Of a stretch of DNA of 64,000 nt, positions 24,032 through 47,607 are shown piece after piece. The notes under the pieces are model-generated. The model did no database searches. It was not told where the DNA came from and was given only the letters and a program-made list of their open reading frames with translations. Within the stretch, counting starts at the first letter, position 1. Each line of letters opens with the position of its first letter. Source of the DNA: Bacteroidetes bacterium SW_9_63_38 (GTDB lineage: Bacteria; Bacteroidota; Rhodothermia; Rhodothermales; Salinibacteraceae); NCBI GenBank assembly GCA_003022435.1, contig PXUA01000002.1, positions 1 through 64,000 of the forward strand, given 5' to 3'. The translations under genes were made by a program, and so were the position numbers.

Positions 24032-24313
24032 TACCGATACGTGAATAGGTTTCCACCGATCTGTGTGCCTTTTCGAGATTAATTACCGGACCGGATTTTC
24101 TGTGCCGTTCGTCTTCCGATCGGCCTTGAAGAGACGAGCGTAGCGACTCATGAAATAAATCGGCGTCTCGGAGAGCTGTGAGAGAGGGAATCTCAGATTC
24201 CCAGGATTCAGAATCTCCAGAAATCCAGGATTCCCAGGATCTAGAATCTCCAGCAATCTGGGATTCCCAAGCTATGGCGGAAAATGGCTTAAGCACTTTC
24301 TCACGGATCGGCA
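24032..24313 (+). repeat. TACCGATACGTGAAT inverted-end element between pheS and pheT
   Basis: Left end TACCGATACGTGAATAGG, right end TTTCTCACGGATCGGCA. It is related in inverse orientation to 31574-31885 at both ends and in the interior but lacks the MITE. Two 33-bp tandem units (24194-24226 and 24227-24259, beginning GATTCCCAGGAT) lie inside. No protein is encoded. Confidence 0.75.
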
Positions 24314-31573: not shown

Positions 31574-31885
31574 TACCGATCCGTGAGAAAGTAAGTACAC
31601 TATTCCCCGCCCTAGTGCAGCTTCAAACGATCTTTTGGGGAAAGCAGTTTGCTATTGCTCCACGCTCCAGCTTGAGGTATGGACGGACGAGGTCCGTCCA
31701 AAGCTCGATTGCACAACGGACCAGTTGAAGCTGCACTAGCTTGGGAATCCTAGATTTCTGGAGATTCTGAATCCTGGGAATCCTAGATTCCCGGGACCGT
31801 GTACAGCCTCAAGCAGAGGCGGGGTTGACCGATCTAGGAAATCTGAGATTTCCAGGATCGGTGGAAACTCATTCACGTATCGGTA
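31574..31885 (+). repeat. 312-bp TACCGATCCGTGAG inverted-end element containing a MITE
   Basis: Left end TACCGATCCGTGAGAAAG, right end TTCACGTATCGGTA. The outer element is the inverse counterpart of the one at 24032-24313, and its left end matches 95-136. The MITE at 31616-31735 interrupts it with a perfect CTAG duplication. The interval 31886-32217 that follows holds no gene I can support. Confidence 0.8.
31616..31735 (-). mobile_element. 120-bp MITE, copy 3, with CTAG target duplication
   Basis: Perfect 11-bp terminal inverted repeat (TGCAGCTTCAA/TTGAAGCTGCA), flanked by CTAG at 31612-31615 and 31736-31739. It has the same length (120 bp) and is nearly identical to 2676-2795 in reverse orientation. 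Confidence 0.9.
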
Positions 31886-32876: not shown

Positions 32877-35800
32877 TTAGCTGCAGCGGGAGTGGCCGCA
32901 GTCCGCGCACATCATGCAGCCCTCGACGTGGCGCACGTTGGAGGAACCGCACTTGTCGCAGGTCACCTCGTGGTCGTCGGCGTGCGCCGCCAGGGCCTTT
33001 GCCATGGCCTGGCCAAAGGACGCGATGGAGCCCTCTGCCTTCTCCAGTTGCTCAACGAGGAAGTCCACCTTCGAGCCGTGCCGGAGCGCCGTAGACACGA
33101 GCCGCGTTTCGGCCCGGGCTTCGTCCGATGGCATGTGGCTGGTGATGTCCTCGATCACGACATCGCCCTCAGGCGTGAGCAGCGAGTAGTGGCGGCTCTT
33201 GTTCTTGCTGATAACGCCCTCGTTGATCCGCTCAGCAGGATCGCCGAAGAGGGGCGCCTCGCCGTCGGCGTTGAAGGCAAAGACCTCGTACGGGTTGTCG
33301 TCGAGGAAGCCAACGAGCACCGTCCAGTGGTCACCACGGTAGCGCACGCGGTGCACGGCGCAGGACAGCTCGTCCGGACGATCCGGCGCCTCAGTGCGCG
33401 GCAGCCCGTCGTCCTCGTCCTCATCATCGCCGGACAGCACCGCGCTCATCGTTCCGGCGCGGTACGTGGTGACGCCCTTGATGGAGCCCGTCTCCCAGGC
33501 CTTCCGGTAGAGGTCCTTGAAGTCCTCGAAGGGGTAGTCCTGCGGGATGTTGACCGTGTTGTGAGACACGATGTTGCCAACTCGATAGCTGTGGGTGTCG
33601 GCAACCTCCACGTCGTACACGGCCTTTCGGCCGATATCGCGAACCTCAGTGACGTTTGCCCATCCGAGCGTGTCGTCATAGCCCACACCGAGAGCGTCGA
33701 GCGCAGACTTCTGTACAGCGCTCGATGTCTTCAGACTCCGTCGCAGATTTCGACGACCAATGTAGTCGGGATGGTCGGTCGCGGGAAGCTCCATGTGTCG
33801 CTCCGGATGCTGCACACGGCGCTTCTCGGTTCCAAACGCCCGCGCATCGCATTCACGCTTGTGCGTCTCTACGGGACACAGAAGATCGTTCTGAAGGTAG
33901 GCCCGAACGCTGAACACGGTCTCGTTTTCTGCATCCGTCTTCGAGACGTCTTTTTCCCGAAGATGAACGCGCACGCCGAGTTCAGCAAGAAGGTGGGCCG
34001 CAGCGTCACGCAGGGACTGCGAGTACCCCTCGTAGACCGTCGTCAGGCGCTCCGACTGCGTCGTGTCGACATATCCGTCCAGCGTCAGTCCTTCCAAGAA
34101 GGCTTTCTTGACATCGGTCGGAGAACGGAAAAGGGCCTCCGGCGGCGCCTTTTCCGAAGCCCCCTCTCCGTATTGCTCCCGGAAGTACTGAGCGAGCGGA
34201 CGCGAATGCACTTCGTGCGTTCGAACTCCCGCTCGACGATCCGTCTGGGTCTTGCAGTCTCCAAACCATTCGTCGAGCAATCCAGAGGCAGTGCGCCGAA
34301 CGTCCTCGTCCTTCTCATGAAGTCGAATGGAGTTCTTATTAGCCGACCCGTCGGCAAACCACATTCCCAGAAACCGGGCGAATGCCTCGGTCAGATGCGA
34401 GGGAAAAGCTCGCGAGATCGCGTTCGTGAAGTCCGGCTGCGGCAGGGGTTGAAGCTGGAGATCCGTATCGACGGGGGCGTGGTTGATCGCAATGTGCTCC
34501 CCGTTCTCCAATTCGGAGGCCTGCTTCCACCCCGACGGCGTCAGCAACTTGTGGGTATGGCTGCACTGAATGGTCTCTCCAGTGCTCGTCGCAACTTCGA
34601 CACAGGGCTTTTCCCCGCCGTAATACGCCTTTGTGACGGGCTTCATGTTTCCCTGTCCATCGGAGGCCTTCGCCTCGATGGCCGGGTCGGAGAAGGTATC
34701 CGGGGCCTGTTCTCCGTCGTAAAACTCCTCGACCCGCACCGGACCGCGAGAGGTTTGAATGCGCGTCCCCTCTACCACACATTTGCTCATCGAAGAGTCG
34801 ATGAACGGCGCCAGGGCCTCCATCTGCCGCAGGTGATCGTCCACGTCGAGGTCACGGGTCGTCACCGCCCAGTCGGCATCCGCGTTCCACTCGGCCCGCT
34901 CCTTCATGTGGCGGACGGCGTAGTCCTCGACCTGCTCGTCCTTACAGATGCCACGGGTCGGGTGAATCTGCCACTGGGTATAGCCCTCATCCGCGCACCG
35001 CAGCACCACCTCGTCGCCCTGCTCCTCGGCCGTCCAGCTGGTGCCGTCGGCGTTGGCGGTATCCCCGGCGGAGTAGGCCCGTGGCGACATCTCCGGCGCC
35101 GTCACCTCGTCGGGCAGGGCCGGCTGCTCGGACGTGCGGATGTAGCTGTGCATGAACACCGGCTCGATGCCGCTCGACGGCGCATTGGCGAGCGTCGAGG
35201 TGTTGCCGGTCGGCTGGATGGACAGCAGGTGCGAGTTACGGAGCCCGAGGTCCCCGATCATTTCCTTGGTCTCGTCGGAAAGCCGCTGCACGAACGGGTT
35301 CGACAGGTACTCGTCCTTATCGAAGAGCGGGAACGGCTCTTTCTCCTCTGCGAGCCGGGCGCTGGCCTGGTAGGCCTTGTTGGCGAGGTGCTGCTGAAAC
35401 TTGCGCATCACCTGCACACCCTCCTCCGAGCCGTAGCGCTTCTGCATCATCATCAGCGCCGAGCCGTCGCCGAAGTGGCCGAGCCCGATGCGACGCTTCT
35501 GCTGCAGGTTCCAGCGCTGCTCCTCCAGCGGGACGTAGCTCAGGTCGTTGACGTTGTCGAGGAAGCGGACCGCCGACGGAATGAGCTCGTCCAGCAGGTC
35601 GTAGTTGATCTCCTTCTTGTCGGCGTCGACGAACTGCGTGAGGTTGAAGTTGCCCAGGAGGCAGACGCCGCCGACCGGGAGGACCTGTTCGCCGCAGCCT
35701 CGCTGCACGTAGCCCGATGTAATCCAGGTGTCACTTTTCTCACAGTAGAGGTCGTACACGTCTGCGGTGCCCGCCTCTTCAATCGACTCAATCTTCGCCC

Positions 35801-37943
35801 ACCAGTAGTTGCCGCGCTCCGACCGGAGGGAGGAAGTAGTCTCCGGGCTGCTGAGAAGGAAATCCGTCTGTGCTTGCAACAGGCGTTCTCCCTTCTCCGG
35901 ATGAATCTCTTCGAGGCGGCTGTGCCGGGCAAAATTGCGCAGCGATTCCCCGCTTACCTGCGCTGTGTACTTCGTGTGGTTCCCCTCCACGCGGCGGCCG
36001 TTGATCGTCGACTTCGGTGGACTGCTTTCTGTGATTGTAGCGTGCGCGCCGAATGAGAGCATCATCTGACGGAAATTCCGCGCAAGCTCCTCCGACGTGG
36101 TCGTGAACCGAAGCTGGGGATGATTGCTCTTCAGGTTCATGTTGCCGTCGGAGGCAATCAATCCGTCGAGCACGCCCAGCATTTCGGACCGCGTCATCGA
36201 CGCAACATCCACTGTCTTCGACGGAGCCTTCGCCTGGTCCAGCGCCAGATCGTCGACGAGATCTTCGGCCTCGGTCACCCAGATCTTTACGGCTTGGCCT
36301 TCCGAAGCTGTGTCGAGGCGGGGAGCGGCGTCGAAGAGGCTCCGGACGTTTTCGTTGTAGGCCGTGTCGGACGCGGAACTGCTAATTGCCAACGCGTCCC
36401 TGTTATGGGAGTCGAGCGCTTCCTCCGTGTAGCATCCATCCCCTACCAGCACGCCCTTCCTCAAGCCGCGCTCGTACGCGGACTCGTCGAGATCCAGCGG
36501 CCGGTGGTTTCCGCGTACGCGGATCGCGGCGCCCTCTCCAATCTCGTCGAGACGCTTGTCCGTGACCGCCTTGTCGCCGGGCTCCTTCACGTGGTAGCGA
36601 TGCGCCGCCGTCACCAGTTGCTCGCCTCCGTCACTGAAGGAGACACGATACACCGGGTAGTCGCGGTGGACCTCAATCTCATCGACCGGCTCGTGACCAA
36701 TCGTCGTGAGAATCTCGTCCCCAACGGAGACGTTTTCGACGCGCTCATATCCATCGGGGGTATTCACGAGCGTGCCCTCTGCGACGCACGGATTGGTCGC
36801 ATTGATGTGCTCGGTGTAGTTGAGGTTGTTCTCCCGGTTGATGGTGTCGATGAAAATGACGCCGGGCTCGTTGCGGTTGTAAGTGGAATCCATGACGAGA
36901 TCCCAGATCTCCCGGGCGTCGTAGATGGCCTTTTCTCCCGAACGCTTTCGGGACGGGTCGCGCCACGTCTTGACGGTGCCGCCCTTCTCCTGGTACGCCT
37001 TGATGTCGCCGTCCCAGTGCTCGCGGTAGAACTCCGGCTCGCCCTCAAAGTCCGGGAAGCGGAGGGCCCACTCGTCGTCGTTGGCCACCGCCTCCATAAA
37101 CTCATCGGAGACGAGGATAGACATGTTGAACTTGTGCAGGCGCCCCGGCTCCTGCTTGGCCTTGATGAACTCAATGATGTCCGGGTGCCACACGCCCATC
37201 GTCACCATCTGGGCGCCCTTGCGGATCTTGTCCTTCACGTCGTCGCGGTCGGACTGGAGGCCGGAGCCGGCGACGATGGTCGCGGCTTGCTCGTTCCAGA
37301 CGTCCAGCATCTGCACGGCGCCCGGCGTCATGGAGCCGACTCCGCCGATGCGGGAGCCGCGCGGTCGCATGACGTGCGCGCAGAACCCGTAGCCGCCCTC
37401 GCTCGCCAGAATCTTGGCCTGGCGCGTAAGCTCGGCCTGGATCTCGTCCATCGAGTCCTGGTCGTAACCTTGAAACCCCGATACGAAACAGTTTATCAAA
37501 GTTGCTTTGCCGAGCGACGTGCCGGCGTTGGCGAAGATGCGCCCGCCCGGCGTAAAGGGAAATGGGCCGGTTGAGAGTCCCTGCCCGCTCAGCAGTTGGT
37601 AAAATTTCTTCGTCCAGTGCCCCTCGTCCGCCTCGACCGACGCGAGGTGGCGGGCATTCCGGTACCAACTGTCCGGCACGTGGGTGTCGGTGCCGTACTG
37701 ATAATTCTGTTCGTAGACCTCCTCCGAGATCGCCGTTTCGAAGATGTCGGCGTTCGTGCGATCATCGTCGATCTGATCGCTCTGGTCAATGTGGTACTGC
37801 CCATCCGGCACGTCGGCTGCCGGCGCCATGGCGAGCGCTCCGTCGCCGCGCCCGTTGGGCGAGGGCGGAGCGGCCTCGGAGGCAGACTCGGATGTATCGT
37901 TCGCCGGAGAGGAAGGGGACTTGGACATATTGGCTGTGTTCAT
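32877..37943 (-). CDS. nrdJ: Adenosylcobalamin-dependent ribonucleotide reductase (class II) with two inteins
   Basis: Reduces ribonucleotides to deoxyribonucleotides using coenzyme B12. The precursor is 1688 aa; removing inteins of 364 and 408 aa leaves about 916, normal for NrdJ. Extein motifs are FTPGGRIFANAGT, INCFVSGFQG, EGGYGFCAHVMRPRG, NATNPCGEQ (catalytic loop, split by intein 1), PTGNTSTLANAPSSGIEPVF, DSSMSKTVN (split by intein 2), KGVTTYRAGT and a C-terminal cysteine cluster, CDKCGSSNV..CMMCADCG. ATG 37943 is preferred; the frame extends to GTG 37967, adding only FFFLGYK-like leader. The N-terminal 50 residues are Ser/Asp-rich. The gene is essential in many relatives, so splicing of both inteins matters. 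The upstream stretch 37944-38336 holds nothing recognisable. Confidence 0.95.
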   Translation of the reverse strand: MNTANMSKSPSSPANDTSESASEAAPPSPNGRGDGALAMAPAADVPDGQYHIDQSDQIDDDRTNADIFETAISEEVYEQNYQYGTDTHVPDSWYRNARHLASVEADEGHWTKKFYQLLSGQGLSTGPFPFTPGGRIFANAGTSLGKATLINCFVSGFQGYDQDSMDEIQAELTRQAKILASEGGYGFCAHVMRPRGSRIGGVGSMTPGAVQMLDVWNEQAATIVAGSGLQSDRDDVKDKIRKGAQMVTMGVWHPDIIEFIKAKQEPGRLHKFNMSILVSDEFMEAVANDDEWALRFPDFEGEPEFYREHWDGDIKAYQEKGGTVKTWRDPSRKRSGEKAIYDAREIWDLVMDSTYNRNEPGVIFIDTINRENNLNYTEHINATNPCVAEGTLVNTPDGYERVENVSVGDEILTTIGHEPVDEIEVHRDYPVYRVSFSDGGEQLVTAAHRYHVKEPGDKAVTDKRLDEIGEGAAIRVRGNHRPLDLDESAYERGLRKGVLVGDGCYTEEALDSHNRDALAISSSASDTAYNENVRSLFDAAPRLDTASEGQAVKIWVTEAEDLVDDLALDQAKAPSKTVDVASMTRSEMLGVLDGLIASDGNMNLKSNHPQLRFTTTSEELARNFRQMMLSFGAHATITESSPPKSTINGRRVEGNHTKYTAQVSGESLRNFARHSRLEEIHPEKGERLLQAQTDFLLSSPETTSSLRSERGNYWWAKIESIEEAGTADVYDLYCEKSDTWITSGYVQRGCGEQVLPVGGVCLLGNFNLTQFVDADKKEINYDLLDELIPSAVRFLDNVNDLSYVPLEEQRWNLQQKRRIGLGHFGDGSALMMMQKRYGSEEGVQVMRKFQQHLANKAYQASARLAEEKEPFPLFDKDEYLSNPFVQRLSDETKEMIGDLGLRNSHLLSIQPTGNTSTLANAPSSGIEPVFMHSYIRTSEQPALPDEVTAPEMSPRAYSAGDTANADGTSWTAEEQGDEVVLRCADEGYTQWQIHPTRGICKDEQVEDYAVRHMKERAEWNADADWAVTTRDLDVDDHLRQMEALAPFIDSSMSKCVVEGTRIQTSRGPVRVEEFYDGEQAPDTFSDPAIEAKASDGQGNMKPVTKAYYGGEKPCVEVATSTGETIQCSHTHKLLTPSGWKQASELENGEHIAINHAPVDTDLQLQPLPQPDFTNAISRAFPSHLTEAFARFLGMWFADGSANKNSIRLHEKDEDVRRTASGLLDEWFGDCKTQTDRRAGVRTHEVHSRPLAQYFREQYGEGASEKAPPEALFRSPTDVKKAFLEGLTLDGYVDTTQSERLTTVYEGYSQSLRDAAAHLLAELGVRVHLREKDVSKTDAENETVFSVRAYLQNDLLCPVETHKRECDARAFGTEKRRVQHPERHMELPATDHPDYIGRRNLRRSLKTSSAVQKSALDALGVGYDDTLGWANVTEVRDIGRKAVYDVEVADTHSYRVGNIVSHNTVNIPQDYPFEDFKDLYRKAWETGSIKGVTTYRAGTMSAVLSGDDEDEDDGLPRTEAPDRPDELSCAVHRVRYRGDHWTVLVGFLDDNPYEVFAFNADGEAPLFGDPAERINEGVISKNKSRHYSLLTPEGDVVIEDITSHMPSDEARAETRLVSTALRHGSKVDFLVEQLEKAEGSIASFGQAMAKALAAHADDHEVTCDKCGSSNVRHVEGCMMCADCGHSRCS
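33558..34781 (-). other. Intein 2 of NrdJ, canonical, with LAGLIDADG endonuclease
   Basis: A 408-aa insertion between DSSMSK and TVNIPQ. It begins CVVEGTRIQTSRGPVRVEEF, has block B CSHTHKLLTPSGW, endonuclease motifs FLGMWFADGSAN and FLEGLTLDGYVD, and ends THSYRVGNIVSHN before Thr+1. All splicing residues (Cys1, block-B His, His-Asn, Thr+1) are present, so it should splice. Confidence 0.93.
35697..36788 (-). other. Intein 1 of NrdJ, with LAGLIDADG endonuclease and a non-canonical Arg-Gly end
   Basis: A 364-aa insertion between NATNP and CGEQ. Splicing block A begins with Cys1 (CVAEGTLVNTPDGYERV). Block B has the HRYH region (LVTAAHRYHVKEPG). Two dodecapeptide endonuclease motifs are visible (RKGVLVGDGCY and LLDGLIASDGNM-like). 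The C-terminal block reads DTWITSGYVQRG before Cys+1. Canonical inteins end His-Asn, and Asn cyclisation releases the intein; here these positions are Arg-Gly. Its C-terminal quarter also contains an in-frame copy of a short dispersed repeat (35814-35851). Confidence 0.85.
35814..35851 (+). repeat. Short ACTACTTCCTC-core repeat inside intein 1
   Basis: 38 bp matching 44745-44782 at 34 of 38 positions, including 24 identical bases (35828-35851 and 44759-44782). On the coding strand it reads LLSSPETTSSLRSERGN in frame. It is the only copy I find in an open frame, and it appears tolerated within the intein. Confidence 0.7.
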
Positions 37944-38336
37944 TTTGTAGCCGAGAAAGAAAAACACCGTCGAACCCTCTGTGCCTCACGAAGACGAGGC
38001 GTGGGAGAGACGAGAACACCTGCGCCGGCCTCTCATGCAGCGCCGCCACGCCTGCTGGATCGTCGGACGCCTCGCAACGACCCGCCCCGTACGTCGAGGC
38101 CCTGTTCGAACGCGAGGGAGATGTAGACGAGGTCCCGAGACGGCCGAGCGCTCCCCACCCCCTGCAAGCGGCGTGTGGCCAGAACCGACGTTCCGCTCAA
38201 ATAGATACAGCGCGCCGCCAGGAGTATCAACAATTTCTATCCACATTCCGTCAACAGGCGGTCCGGGCTCTTCCCGCGTTTTACCCGATTCCGCCCTATT
38301 TTTCCCGTTGACAATAACGGAGACAAACGAGGCATC

Positions 38337-44572: not shown

Positions 44573-44744
44573 AGCCCCCACACTTGCCCATTCTCCACTC
44601 TCACGCCCCCACGCCCCGAGTCACACCTCCAGCACCGGCCGGTCCGCATGATAGTCTTTCATCCAGTCGGCAAAGACCTGCGGGCCTTCCTCGATCGGGG
44701 TCTCCGGCGCCCAGTCCAACAGGGCCTTCGCCTTCGAAATGTCG

Positions 44745-44783
44745 GCGCCCCGACCAACGGGAGGAAGTAGTCTCCGGGCTGCG
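44745..44783 (+). repeat. Short ACTACTTCCTC-core repeat, insert 1
   Basis: Reads GCGCCCCGACC...GGCTGCG. GCG borders both sides of the insert, and the uninterrupted paralogue has a single GCG here. It matches the copy in intein 1 at 34 of 38 positions. Confidence 0.75.
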
Positions 44784-44817
44784 TACATGCGTTCTACATC
44801 GCCGGGCTGCGTGGGGA

Positions 44818-44887
44818 GCACTCTAAAAGTACCTCCTCGTTTCACTCGGGGTGCACTCTAAAAGTACTTCCTCGTTTCACTCGGGGC
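44818..44887 (+). repeat. Two tandem 35-bp units with TACYTCCTC core
   Basis: Units 44818-44852 and 44853-44887 differ at two positions (CCTC/TTCC-type change and the last base). Each begins GCACTCTAAAAGTAC and ends TTTCACTCGGGG. Absent from the intact paralogue. Confidence 0.85.
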
Positions 44888-44966
44888 GCTGTTCGATCTC
44901 CGGCGTAATGTCCATCGCATCGGCAGTGCCGGAAATGAGGTCCTTGAGCTGCGTCGTCTCCGAGCC

Positions 44967-45021
44967 TCAGCCCAGGACTACTTCCTCCTTGGCACTCTCC
45001 CGAGTGCCTGCGTCAGGGCGC
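44967..45021 (+). repeat. Short ACTACTTCCTC-core repeat, insert 3
   Basis: Contains CAGCCCAGGACTACTTCCTC, then a small hairpin GGCACTC-TCCC-GAGTGCC, then a GGGCGC end. The paralogue reads straight through. Confidence 0.75.
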
Positions 45022-45093
45022 CCAGGTTGATAATCTCGTACTCCGGCTCGTCCAGCGAAGTCGTTCGGTGGAGGCTTCGCACAATCCCGTCGC

Positions 45094-45192
45094 TACCGAT
45101 CCGTGAAGCAAACCATGATGAAAATTACTGCTTATATGAAGCACGGTCCCCCTCTCTGCGAAAGTCTCTTCAACGTTTACGACGGATCGGTA
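45094..45192 (+). repeat. 99-bp TACCGATCCGTGAA inverted-end element
   Basis: Left end TACCGATCCGTGAAG, right end GACGGATCGGTA. It interrupts the epimerase pseudogene at a point where the paralogue is continuous. The interior is unlike the 104-bp element; only the ends are shared. Confidence 0.75.
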
Positions 45193-45281
45193 CTGTCGGC
45201 CACGTAGGTGTAGTCGCGGCGCGAGGTGCCGTCGCCGTACATCGTGATGGGCTGGTCCGTCAGCAACTGGCGGGCGAACTT

Positions 45282-45383
45282 GCGCCCCAAGAGCACTTCC
45301 TCGCTGGAGATCTGGGATCTCCTCGCTCAGGGCGCAGCCCAAGACTACTTCCTCGCTGGAGATCTGGGATCTCCTCGCTCAGG
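45282..45383 (+). repeat. Two tandem ACTACTTCCTC-core units with internal palindrome
   Basis: Units 45282-45331 and 45332-45383. Each carries CACTTCCTC or CTACTTCCTC, then GCTGGAGATCTGGGATCTCC (an inverted repeat around GATCTGGGATC), then CTCGCTCAGG. Absent from the intact paralogue. Confidence 0.85.
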
Positions 45384-45472
45384 GCGCTGCGGGGGCCGCA
45401 TCCGCGACGGCTGTCGGGATACTTCTTCCCTCCGGTCGGGGCGTAGACGGTGAAGAAACGCAGGCAGTGGAT

Positions 45473-45575
45473 CCACCAATCCGTGAAGGAGCTTCAAGCT
45501 TCCGGGGGTCGTTCTTATCGGGACGCGGTCCCTCTCAGTCGGATTGATACGAAAATGTGCTTGGTTACGGATTGG
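45473..45575 (+). repeat. 103-bp CACCAATCCGTGAA inverted-end element
   Basis: Left end CACCAATCCGTGAAGG, right end GGTTACGGATTGGTG. It is a variant-ended member of the family, inserted in the epimerase pseudogene between blocks that are adjacent in the paralogue. Confidence 0.7.
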
Positions 45576-45806
45576 TGCTGTTGTAGAGGTGGTGAAACGT
45601 GTGGGCCAGCAGCTCGCCGGACCGCTTCGTCGCCGCGTAGGGCGAGATGGGGGGTTCCCCCCGATCGTTCTCCAGGAAAACGGGACCATGTCCGTGCTGC
45701 CGCAGACAAACGAGGAGGGGTTTGGTTGGATAAGTCGACGCACTCTTTGGCACCTTCCAACATCGACTGCATTCCGTCAACGGTGCAAGAAATGAACATC
45801 CGTGTT

Positions 45807-46623: not shown

Positions 46624-47607
46624 CTACACCTCCAGCACCGGCCGATCCGCGTAGTAGGACTTGACCCAGTCCGCAAACTTTTGGAGACCCTCGTCAATAG
46701 TGGTGTCCGGCACCCAATCGAGCAGATCGCGGGCCTTCGAAATGTCCGCGTAGGTGCGTTCAACATCGCCGGGCTGGGTCGGCAACTGCTTGATCTCAGG
46801 CTCGATGCCCATCGCGTCCCCGATCCCCGCAATCAGGTCTTTGAGCTGCGTGGTCTCCGATCCGCCGAGGTTGATGATCTCGTACTCGGGGTCGTCGAGG
46901 GATGTCGCGCGGTGGAGACTCTTTACGATGCCGTCGACGATGTCGTCGACGAACGTGTAGTCGCGACGCGAGGTGCCGTCGCCGTACATCGTGATGGGCT
47001 GATCCGTGAGGAGCTGCCGGGCAAACTTGTGGATCGCCAGGTCCGGCCGCTGACGGGGGCCGTACACGGTGAAGAAGCGCAGGCAGTGGGTCGTGATGTC
47101 ATAGAGGTGGTGGAACGTGTGCGCCAGCAGCTCGCCGGATCGCTTCGTGGCGGCGTAGGGCGAGATGGGGTGCTCGACCCGGTCGTCCTCCGCGAAGGGC
47201 ACCGTGTCGTTGTTGCCGTAGACCGACGAGGAGGAGCCGTAGATGAACGTGTCGATGCCCAGCTCCTGGGCGACCTCCAACATCGACTGCGTGCCGCCGA
47301 CGTTCGTGCGCTCGTAGGCCACCGGCGTCTCGATGGACGGCCGCACGCCCGCCTTCGCGGCGAGGTGGACGATCGCGTCCACGTTCCGGGCGTGCAGGGC
47401 GTGCAGGATGGCGTCGGTGTTGCAGATGTCGGTCTCGATGAGCGTGAATCGATCCCGTGGAAAATCTTCAATCCCCTCCTCCTTGATGGCACGTGGATAA
47501 AACGGATCGAAGTTGTCTATAGCCGTGACACGGTGGCCGTCGTTCAGAAGGCGACGACACAGATGCCCGCCGATGAAGCCGGCCCCGCCGGTGACGCAAA
47601 CGTGCAT
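46624..47607 (-). CDS. NAD-dependent epimerase (UDP-glucuronate/UDP-glucose 4-epimerase-like)
   Basis: 327 aa from ATG 47607 ([21 protein letters not shown]). The NAD motif [34 protein letters not shown] and YAATK (catalytic Tyr-x3-Lys), followed by [19 protein letters not shown], point to the UDP-glucuronate 4-epimerase branch; the exact substrate is uncertain. It is the intact paralogue of the pseudogene at 44621-45783 and provides the reference for mapping its inserts. The C-terminus ends PVLEV in both. Confidence 0.88.

Follow-up and report, generated by a model that had tools for sequence, protein, structure and literature searches.

The window (the whole stretch of 64,000 nucleotides of DNA that was analysed) contains two copies of what reads from its sequence as a gene for an NAD-dependent epimerase. 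One, at 46624-47607 on the minus strand, is intact by its open reading frame and by alignment and provides the empty-site reference; the other, at 44624-45783 on the minus strand, is a decayed pseudogene. Global alignment of positions 44601-45800 with the intact paralogue identifies seven insert sites in the pseudogene, and once the inserts are removed, 649 bases align at 79% identity, with 10 runs of gaps. Family A repeats occupy five of these sites, and family B inserts, which have inverted ends, occupy the other two. The first-pass annotation had described at least seven inserts, made up of core repeats and inverted-end elements and read as one repeat record. The seven sites, the coordinates, the unit sizes and the tandem pairs agree with the alignment (a unit given as about 51 bp measures 52 bp) and both kinds of insert are present, but the core is no more than a linker within a structured 35-nt unit, and the inverted-end inserts come from a different family. 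Its reading of the inserts as tiny mobile repeats from a family not yet described applies to five of the seven sites.

Insert i1 (44745-44780, plus strand) is a single 36-nt unit composed of GCGCCCCGA, a first hairpin (H1) CCAACGG, GAGGAAGT, and a second hairpin (H2) AGTCTCCGGGCT. The remaining family A inserts are on the minus strand: i2 (44820-44889) is a tandem pair of 35-nt units (44820-44854 and 44855-44889) with H1 GTGAAAC; i3 (about 44969-45021) is a 53-nt unit with a long H1 hairpin, GGCACTC...GAGTGCC; i5 (45284-45387) is a tandem pair whose units are 52 bp instead of 35 because H1 is long, with the extension GGAGATCCCAGATCTCC; and i6 (45400-45444) is a 45-nt unit in which H2 is enlarged by a CGACAGCCGTCG-type hairpin. 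The boundaries, claimed to be mostly readable, can be read against the paralogue at i1, i2, i3 and i6, but the i5 junction is not clean, with about 20 bp of paralogue sequence absent beside the insert. We note that the loop of the i5 H1 stem has opposite orientations in another genome of the genus, G007 (locus L099, TGG), and in the window's own genome, G000 (45284-45387, CCA), as if the hairpin had flipped.

With at most one mismatch, ACTACTTCCTC occurs eight times in the window against 0.68 expected, and five of the eight occurrences lie within units. A search of genome and relatives, as the first-pass annotation had proposed, finds matches to the insert stretches elsewhere in G000 (including stretches 92-95% identical to i5) and in each of the 13 genomes of the genus; the copies found elsewhere in G000 and in related species are those of family A. 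In the same search the family B inserts have no match elsewhere in their own genome. These are i4 (45095-45191, 97 bp, terminal inverted repeat ACCGATCCGT / ACGGATCGGT) and i7 (45475-45576, 102 bp, terminal inverted repeat ACCAATCCGT / ACGGATTGGT), neither assigned a strand; at roughly 100 bp each they are the inserts that resemble prokaryotic MITEs. Elsewhere in the window, positions 1-136 and 31574-31709 are inverted copies of 136 nt that are 98% identical, and at 24034-24311 and 31574-31885 there are stretches of about 280-310 bp which, like i4, end in TACCGATCCGTGA-like inverted repeats. These stretches and the 136-nt copies probably constitute a separate MITE family.

Structure of the family A unit

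Extraction of 96 units from the window and other genome stretches yields a single grammar: GCGCCCYGA, the variable hairpin H1, GARGAAGT, and the hairpin H2, after which comes either a flanking G or the GCGCCC of the next unit. H1 ranges from 7 to 32 nt, and H2 usually has 4 bp and a 3-nt loop. The shortest hairpins give a unit of 35 nt and 35-36 nt is typical, with longer units where a hairpin is enlarged; the class with H2 AGTCTCCGGGCT is 36 nt long. Copies are single or arranged in head-to-tail arrays, within which the units are often alike. A CRISPR array was considered and rejected, as the units abut directly with no spacers and the variable part is a hairpin with matching arms. A reading as structured RNA of an Rfam family was rejected as well, since ten loci searched against Rfam give no match above the gathering threshold; one chance-level match falls in the pseudogene.

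The stems of both hairpins show compensatory changes. Among 37 distinct 35-mers, whose linkers are invariant because they were the basis of selection, standard pairs fill 96.8% of the cells of the six hairpin pairs, and both sides have changed in 40 cells compared with 14.5 in shuffles, a count reached by none of 500. Pairing falls to 45-54% when the partners are slid by one column, and the first pair of H1 is C-G in 12 units, G-C in 12 and A-T in nine. Two of the five measures are less extreme, the number of pairs with double changes and the number of further pair types being matched by 22 and 19 of the 500 shuffles. Minimum-energy folds of four units, whether as DNA or as RNA, are no better than those of shuffles. 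Long uninterrupted stems are found in 11 of 22 long H1 hairpins of the Salinibacter set, against a shuffle mean of 10.6, and in 32 of 46 in the set of tandem loci, against 24.1.

G.T pairs exceed A.C pairs in distinct H2 hairpins both in the Salinibacter set (52 versus 14) and in the tandem loci, which include those of proteobacteria and Salinivenus (33 versus 4), and the strand that reads GCGCCC therefore looks like the one that folds. The short H1 hairpins share this polarity of strand: among 32 distinct forms of 7-8 nt both pairs form in 30, and 25 have a GN(N)A loop on the GCGCCC strand while none has one on the opposite strand. The commonest of them (CCGAAGG, ACGAAGT and GCGAAGC) resemble the ultrastable DNA mini-hairpin d(GCGAAGC), and the GNNA loops have a pyrimidine at position 3 in eight of 13 distinct cases. 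Such DNA mini-hairpins, in which a GNA or GNNA loop is combined with two or more G-C pairs, are described as ultrastable, with the GCGAAGC fragment melting at 78 C (PMC4686876). The loop type of H1 points to single-stranded DNA.

The outer two pairs of H2 bring a tetranucleotide, GTN1N2, together with the unit's final dinucleotide, and the two vary together. Among 156 distinct units GTAG is paired with a CT end in 42 of 43, GTAC with GT in 47 of 53, and GTGC with GT or GC in all 46, although this tabulation favours agreement, as it keeps only units with at least three of the four H2 pairs (189 of 202 rows, 13 being dropped). The TnpA_REP enzymes of E. coli and S. maltophilia are reported to cut at CT, and with the Marinomonas enzyme a change of GTAG to GTAC moved cutting to GA and GT (PMC8266576). 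The likeness between the guide and end code of family A and that of TnpA_REP suggests a mechanism of the Y1/HUH type.

The left flank of the units has no motif. On the right, the first base after array-terminal units (n=63) is G in 53, and GC follows in 31; with array-internal junctions counted in, GC stands to the right of 154 of 189 units. In IS200/IS605 elements the target lies on the other side.

Filled and empty sites in related genomes

Twelve element-bearing segments were compared with eight genomes, and seven loci were aligned between species. A unit in IleRS is present in G000 and G008, and the gene is exactly 36 bp shorter in G001, G002, G004, G005, G006 and G007. The PGI unit of G004 has empty counterparts in five genomes, the transketolase unit of G001 has one (G004), that of the glycogen debranching enzyme (GDE) in G011 has two (G001 and G004), and the MenE unit of G008 has three (G002, G006 and G005). 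A helicase gene has two units in G005, one in G006 and none in G002, G007 or G004; and a penicillin-binding protein gene has a complex array in G001 and none in G007. Beyond these seven loci, tsaE has three units in G005 and none in G006, G008, G002, G001 or G004. The differences extend to close relatives, as G005 and G006 are 95-96% identical in three compared segments and differ at tsaE (three units and none) and in the helicase gene (two and one). The gene names are mostly supported by Pfam, with IleRS and MenE being sequence readings within broader Pfam families and pdxH assigned by eye; the frames and peptides, the gene-end contexts (lysS) and the tsaE comparison were also read by eye.

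The search for filled and empty sites in relatives that had been proposed for this region thus recovers orthologous sites that differ in both the presence and the number of units, and the exact 36-bp differences suggest that the family is mobile. Its standing as a mobile structured repeat family is well supported. Local duplication was also considered for the inserts, and was rejected because copies are dispersed in all 13 genomes of the genus and orthologous empty sites exist. At these sites insertion is in front of a G, often GC, and any target duplication is at most 2 bp, a length at which it is indistinguishable from the unit's own first bases.

With the 36-nt form a gene gains 12 codons without a change of frame. 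Six of the seven aligned genes carry a 36-nt unit within an open frame, tsaE also has 36-nt units, and the inserted peptide differs according to the frame in which the unit is read. A sixth family A site in the window is of this type, a 36-nt unit at 35814-35849 (plus strand) in frame in a ribonucleotide reductase ORF, where it lies after a LAGLIDADG match. This ORF (32880-37985, minus strand) encodes 1702 aa, and its matches to LAGLIDADG, Hint and intein-splicing domains fall into two distinct regions, which suggests two inteins. The proposal that the inserts accumulate only under relaxed selection is contradicted by the 36-nt copies in frame inside conserved enzymes.

At the tsaE junction GCGCCC is also present in four of five species that lack a unit, and the same is true of several species at a gene read as a membrane fusion protein, so that insertion there would spare the end of the protein. 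The native GCGCCC at a gene end may be a tolerated target, with no function implied. At the membrane fusion protein locus and at a prs-like locus, the opening half of H1 is similar to the native end of the gene.

The pseudogene itself has a history that can be followed in relatives. The same decayed gene in G001 has the i1, i2 and i3 sites filled, with a single unit at i2 and a different internal hairpin at i1, and the i2 site in G010 also holds a single unit; in G002 and G005 there is also a decayed second copy, whose units lie at different places. At the shared sites the linkers are kept and the hairpins differ, with both arms changed in match at i2. The density of inserts had been attributed to a landing preference or to active movement; it is at least partly a matter of age and long exposure, because i1, i2 and i3 are common to G001, and i2 also to G010.

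Distribution and candidate enzymes

A pattern for single units has most matches in G000 (39) and from 3 to 28 in each of the other 12 genomes of the genus (counts cover all 13, individual positions those through G008). The same pattern has 28 matches in 41 genomes of the order outside the genus, about 0.7 per genome, and G002, G009, G011 and G012, with three to four matches each, are therefore barely above background. Three identical matches of the 36-nt type are present on contigs C360, C383 and C427 of G326, a genome of another family in the same order; they may be real, and they possibly reflect transfer or contamination.

The tandem pattern is more restricted. In a phylum sample of 296 genomes it is found in all four genomes of the genus and in none of the 292 others, and a wider collection of genome contigs has 49 tandem loci, of which four (L118, L130, L135 and L149) look like chance and are left out as members. 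The hosts among the Bacteroidota are Salinibacter altiplanensis AN15, Salinivenus lutea, Salinivenus iranica and halophilic Bacteroidetes MAGs. Salinivenus lutea and S. iranica are G004 and G003 of the genus set, and the rows for G025 and G026 are not independent, as these are the same or nearly the same genomes as G004 and G003. Occurrence in Beta- and Gammaproteobacteria is patchy (Rhodocyclaceae, Accumulibacter and Propionivibrio MAGs, and Gammaproteobacteria MAGs), and there are two MAGs from Clostridia (one Clostridia, one Oscillospiraceae), where contamination of the MAGs is possible. Several proteobacterial genomes have mostly one or two types of H1, with the linkers unchanged, and a Thiohalobacter MAG has 16 nearly identical copies. 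Thirteen of the 49 tandem loci, from proteobacteria and from the Bacteroidetes/Salinivenus group, share a position, the 3' end of what by eye reads as lysS.

Among the various contexts in G000, we note that the intergenic units at L066, L067, L069, L070, L072, L073, L074, L076 and L078 lie inside runs of ACGCAATACGCATCACG-like short repeats, which seem to act as a landing ground. At L042 and L044, and partly at L038, L041 and L043, there is a dispersed repeat of up to about 250 bp with a 52-nt unit near one end. Replication strand shows no bias, with 15 versus 13 loci in three genomes, in a tally made by hand in which arrays are counted once, one background-like match in G006 is omitted, and the origin is assumed to be at one of two DnaA-like genes per genome. 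Viral contigs (searched with three patterns), plasmids and phages (one query each), with the BLAST low-complexity filter on, gave no family A match, and carriage by a virus or plasmid has no support from these searches.

None of the candidate enzymes checked, Y1 and RAYT, tracks the elements. PF01797 (Y1) is present in six of the 13 genomes of the genus and absent from G001, G005 and G007, and it is found in eight of 12 additional genomes that bear elements, a set in which G026 duplicates G003. Several proteobacterial hosts have PF01797 matches, some of them in long frames that could be RAYTs. G000 contains a RAYT-like tyrosine transposase gene (L079, G000:C1:71065-71643), whose protein has a match in that genome alone among the 13. 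The Y1 and RAYT genes that were fetched have no clear unit nearby (within about 1.5 kb for the Y1 genes of the genus) and only a few weak, mismatched matches. One of the unit-like sequences, at L060:2227 in G012 (GCGCCCTGACCGCAGG...), is degenerate and lies about 400 bp from a Y1 gene, and is not a clear unit. A resident Y1 or RAYT as the mover is not supported, given this patchy presence and the lack of a clear unit near the genes fetched.

Known elements and a possible mechanism

Double-hairpin elements (DHE) of Allomyces mitochondrial DNA were reportedly described by Paquin in 2000. In architecture, which is all that is compared here, they share with family A two adjacent hairpins and the lack of target duplication, and mitochondrial DHE more generally are alike in having short hairpins, tandem copies and a scattered distribution between close relatives (PMC2800124, PMC2670323); for the Allomyces elements no flanking duplication is reported (PMC2800124). 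Family A differs in being on bacterial chromosomes, in having linkers that are fixed across distant phyla, and in having a mini-hairpin as H1 and in-frame forms. Rickettsia palindromic elements (RPE) resemble family A in their in-frame insertion into unrelated genes (PMC10969869), a feature found here in the conserved genes for IleRS, PGI, transketolase, helicase, GDE, MenE and tsaE. RPEs are about 150 bp long (PMC10969869), however, whereas family A is 36 bp, has two separate small covarying hairpins, and is also intergenic and tandem. Prokaryotic MITEs are likewise non-autonomous, dispersed and small (PMC10969869), but their terminal inverted repeats and target-site duplication fail for family A, which has no terminal inverted repeat in the MITE sense and an overlap of at most 2 bp. 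The PARCEL repeats, one of which is described in Salinibacter, are a different 75-nt coding repeat.

The IS200/IS605 elements share hairpins, the absence of target duplication and, apparently, a guide-like pairing to the cut site (PMC8266576, with some features as generally known). Unlike them, family A is only 35 nt long and is without a transposase gene and without a target motif on the left flank. GTN1N2 pairs with the terminal dinucleotide, which may be its cleavage site, but the target side differs, and a Y1 gene with the same ends is not seen, given the distribution of Y1 genes described above. REP/REPIN sequences and their associated RAYTs (PMC3733652, PMC8266576) are similar in having short hairpin repeats, a guide tetranucleotide beside the stem, and the CT ends seen in the GTAG class. 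Family A differs in having two hairpins per unit, direct arrays and clean insertion into coding genes, and 12 of the 13 genomes of the genus have no RAYT-like match. Two further features of REP/REPINs fail: the tetranucleotide is GTAG (or CGTC) in REPs, whereas GTAG accounts for 43 of 156 distinct units and GTAC and GTGC for 53 and 46, and REPINs are mostly inverted dimers, whereas family A arrays are head-to-tail. Since it lacks tested defining features of REPs, MITEs and RPEs, family A is not filed under any of them. Searches of open-licence PMC papers, including one with six 15-base strings of the units, give no prior description.

A plausible scenario, to which we give about an even chance, is that the inserts at the five sites are minimal non-autonomous mobile elements of 35-36 nt that are moved as folded single-stranded DNA by a nuclease of the HUH type. 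The element would fold on the GCGCCC strand, with H1 forming a DNA mini-hairpin with a loop of the C-GNA-G or C-GNNA-G type, and with the outer pairs of H2 (GTN1N2 and the last two bases) acting as guide and cleavage site, as in TnpA_REP and the Y1/HUH enzymes of the IS608 type. A putative trans-acting nuclease would cut after the terminal dinucleotide and insert the piece before a G, and copies that are in frame, or that precede a native GCGCCC at a gene end, would be tolerated and persist. A single-strand DNA mechanism, though unproven, is the best reading of these patterns. With a little less assurance, the elements may represent a class of transposon of about 35 nt that consists only of an ultrastable mini-hairpin of the d(GCGAAGC) type and a guide-to-end hairpin, moves in trans as folded single-stranded DNA, enters essential genes in frame and has passed between distant phyla.

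An unlikely alternative is that family A belongs with the REP/REPIN repeats and was moved by a RAYT (TnpA_REP) since lost from most of these genomes. It would account for the GTAG-like tetranucleotide beside the stem with its CT end (in 42 of the 43 distinct GTAG units), for the RAYT-like gene in the genome with most pattern matches, and for PF01797 in several proteobacterial hosts, some of which possibly represents RAYTs; most units, however, have GTAC or GTGC, the arrays are direct repeats with no inverted pairs, the RAYT-like protein occurs in one of 13 genomes, and the Y1 and RAYT genes fetched lack a clear unit nearby. We regard as rather less likely again a spread that needs no enzyme of its own, in which replication would slip and switch template at stable single-strand hairpins, using short GC microhomology. 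Head-to-tail arrays of varying unit number, the resemblance of units within an array and the G or GC junction all fit template switching, but exact 36-bp insertions in unrelated genes, and ends and linkers that are fixed across distant phyla, are hard to obtain without a specific mechanism.

Insertion through an RNA intermediate by reverse transcription, which would make family A a minute retroelement, is improbable. The wobble polarity fits RNA as well (as G.U), as does the lack of target duplication. RNA GNRA loops disfavour a pyrimidine at the third position and 2-bp stems are weak in RNA, however, whereas the short H1 loops are of the DNA type, GNA/GNNA, with a pyrimidine allowed at position 3. 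It is highly improbable that the units are sites with a conserved function (as terminators, mRNA stabilisers or nucleoid sites) that multiplied by local duplication and do not move, for although several arrays lie just past gene ends, including the 13 tandem loci at the lysS-read 3' end, units occur in either orientation, are found in a pseudogene, and interrupt enzyme genes in frame at positions that are cleanly empty in sister species.

If movement as folded single-stranded DNA is correct, family A would be nearly as small as a mobile DNA element can get, with a mobility that could be read from clean filled and empty sites in conserved genes. It would provide a natural use for the GNA/GNNA DNA mini-hairpin that is known from test-tube work, and a bacterial counterpart of the mitochondrial double-hairpin elements. 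The pairing of guide and end makes a specific enzymatic prediction, and the 36-nt form would be a system for adding peptides to conserved enzymes through in-frame insertions of 12 codons.
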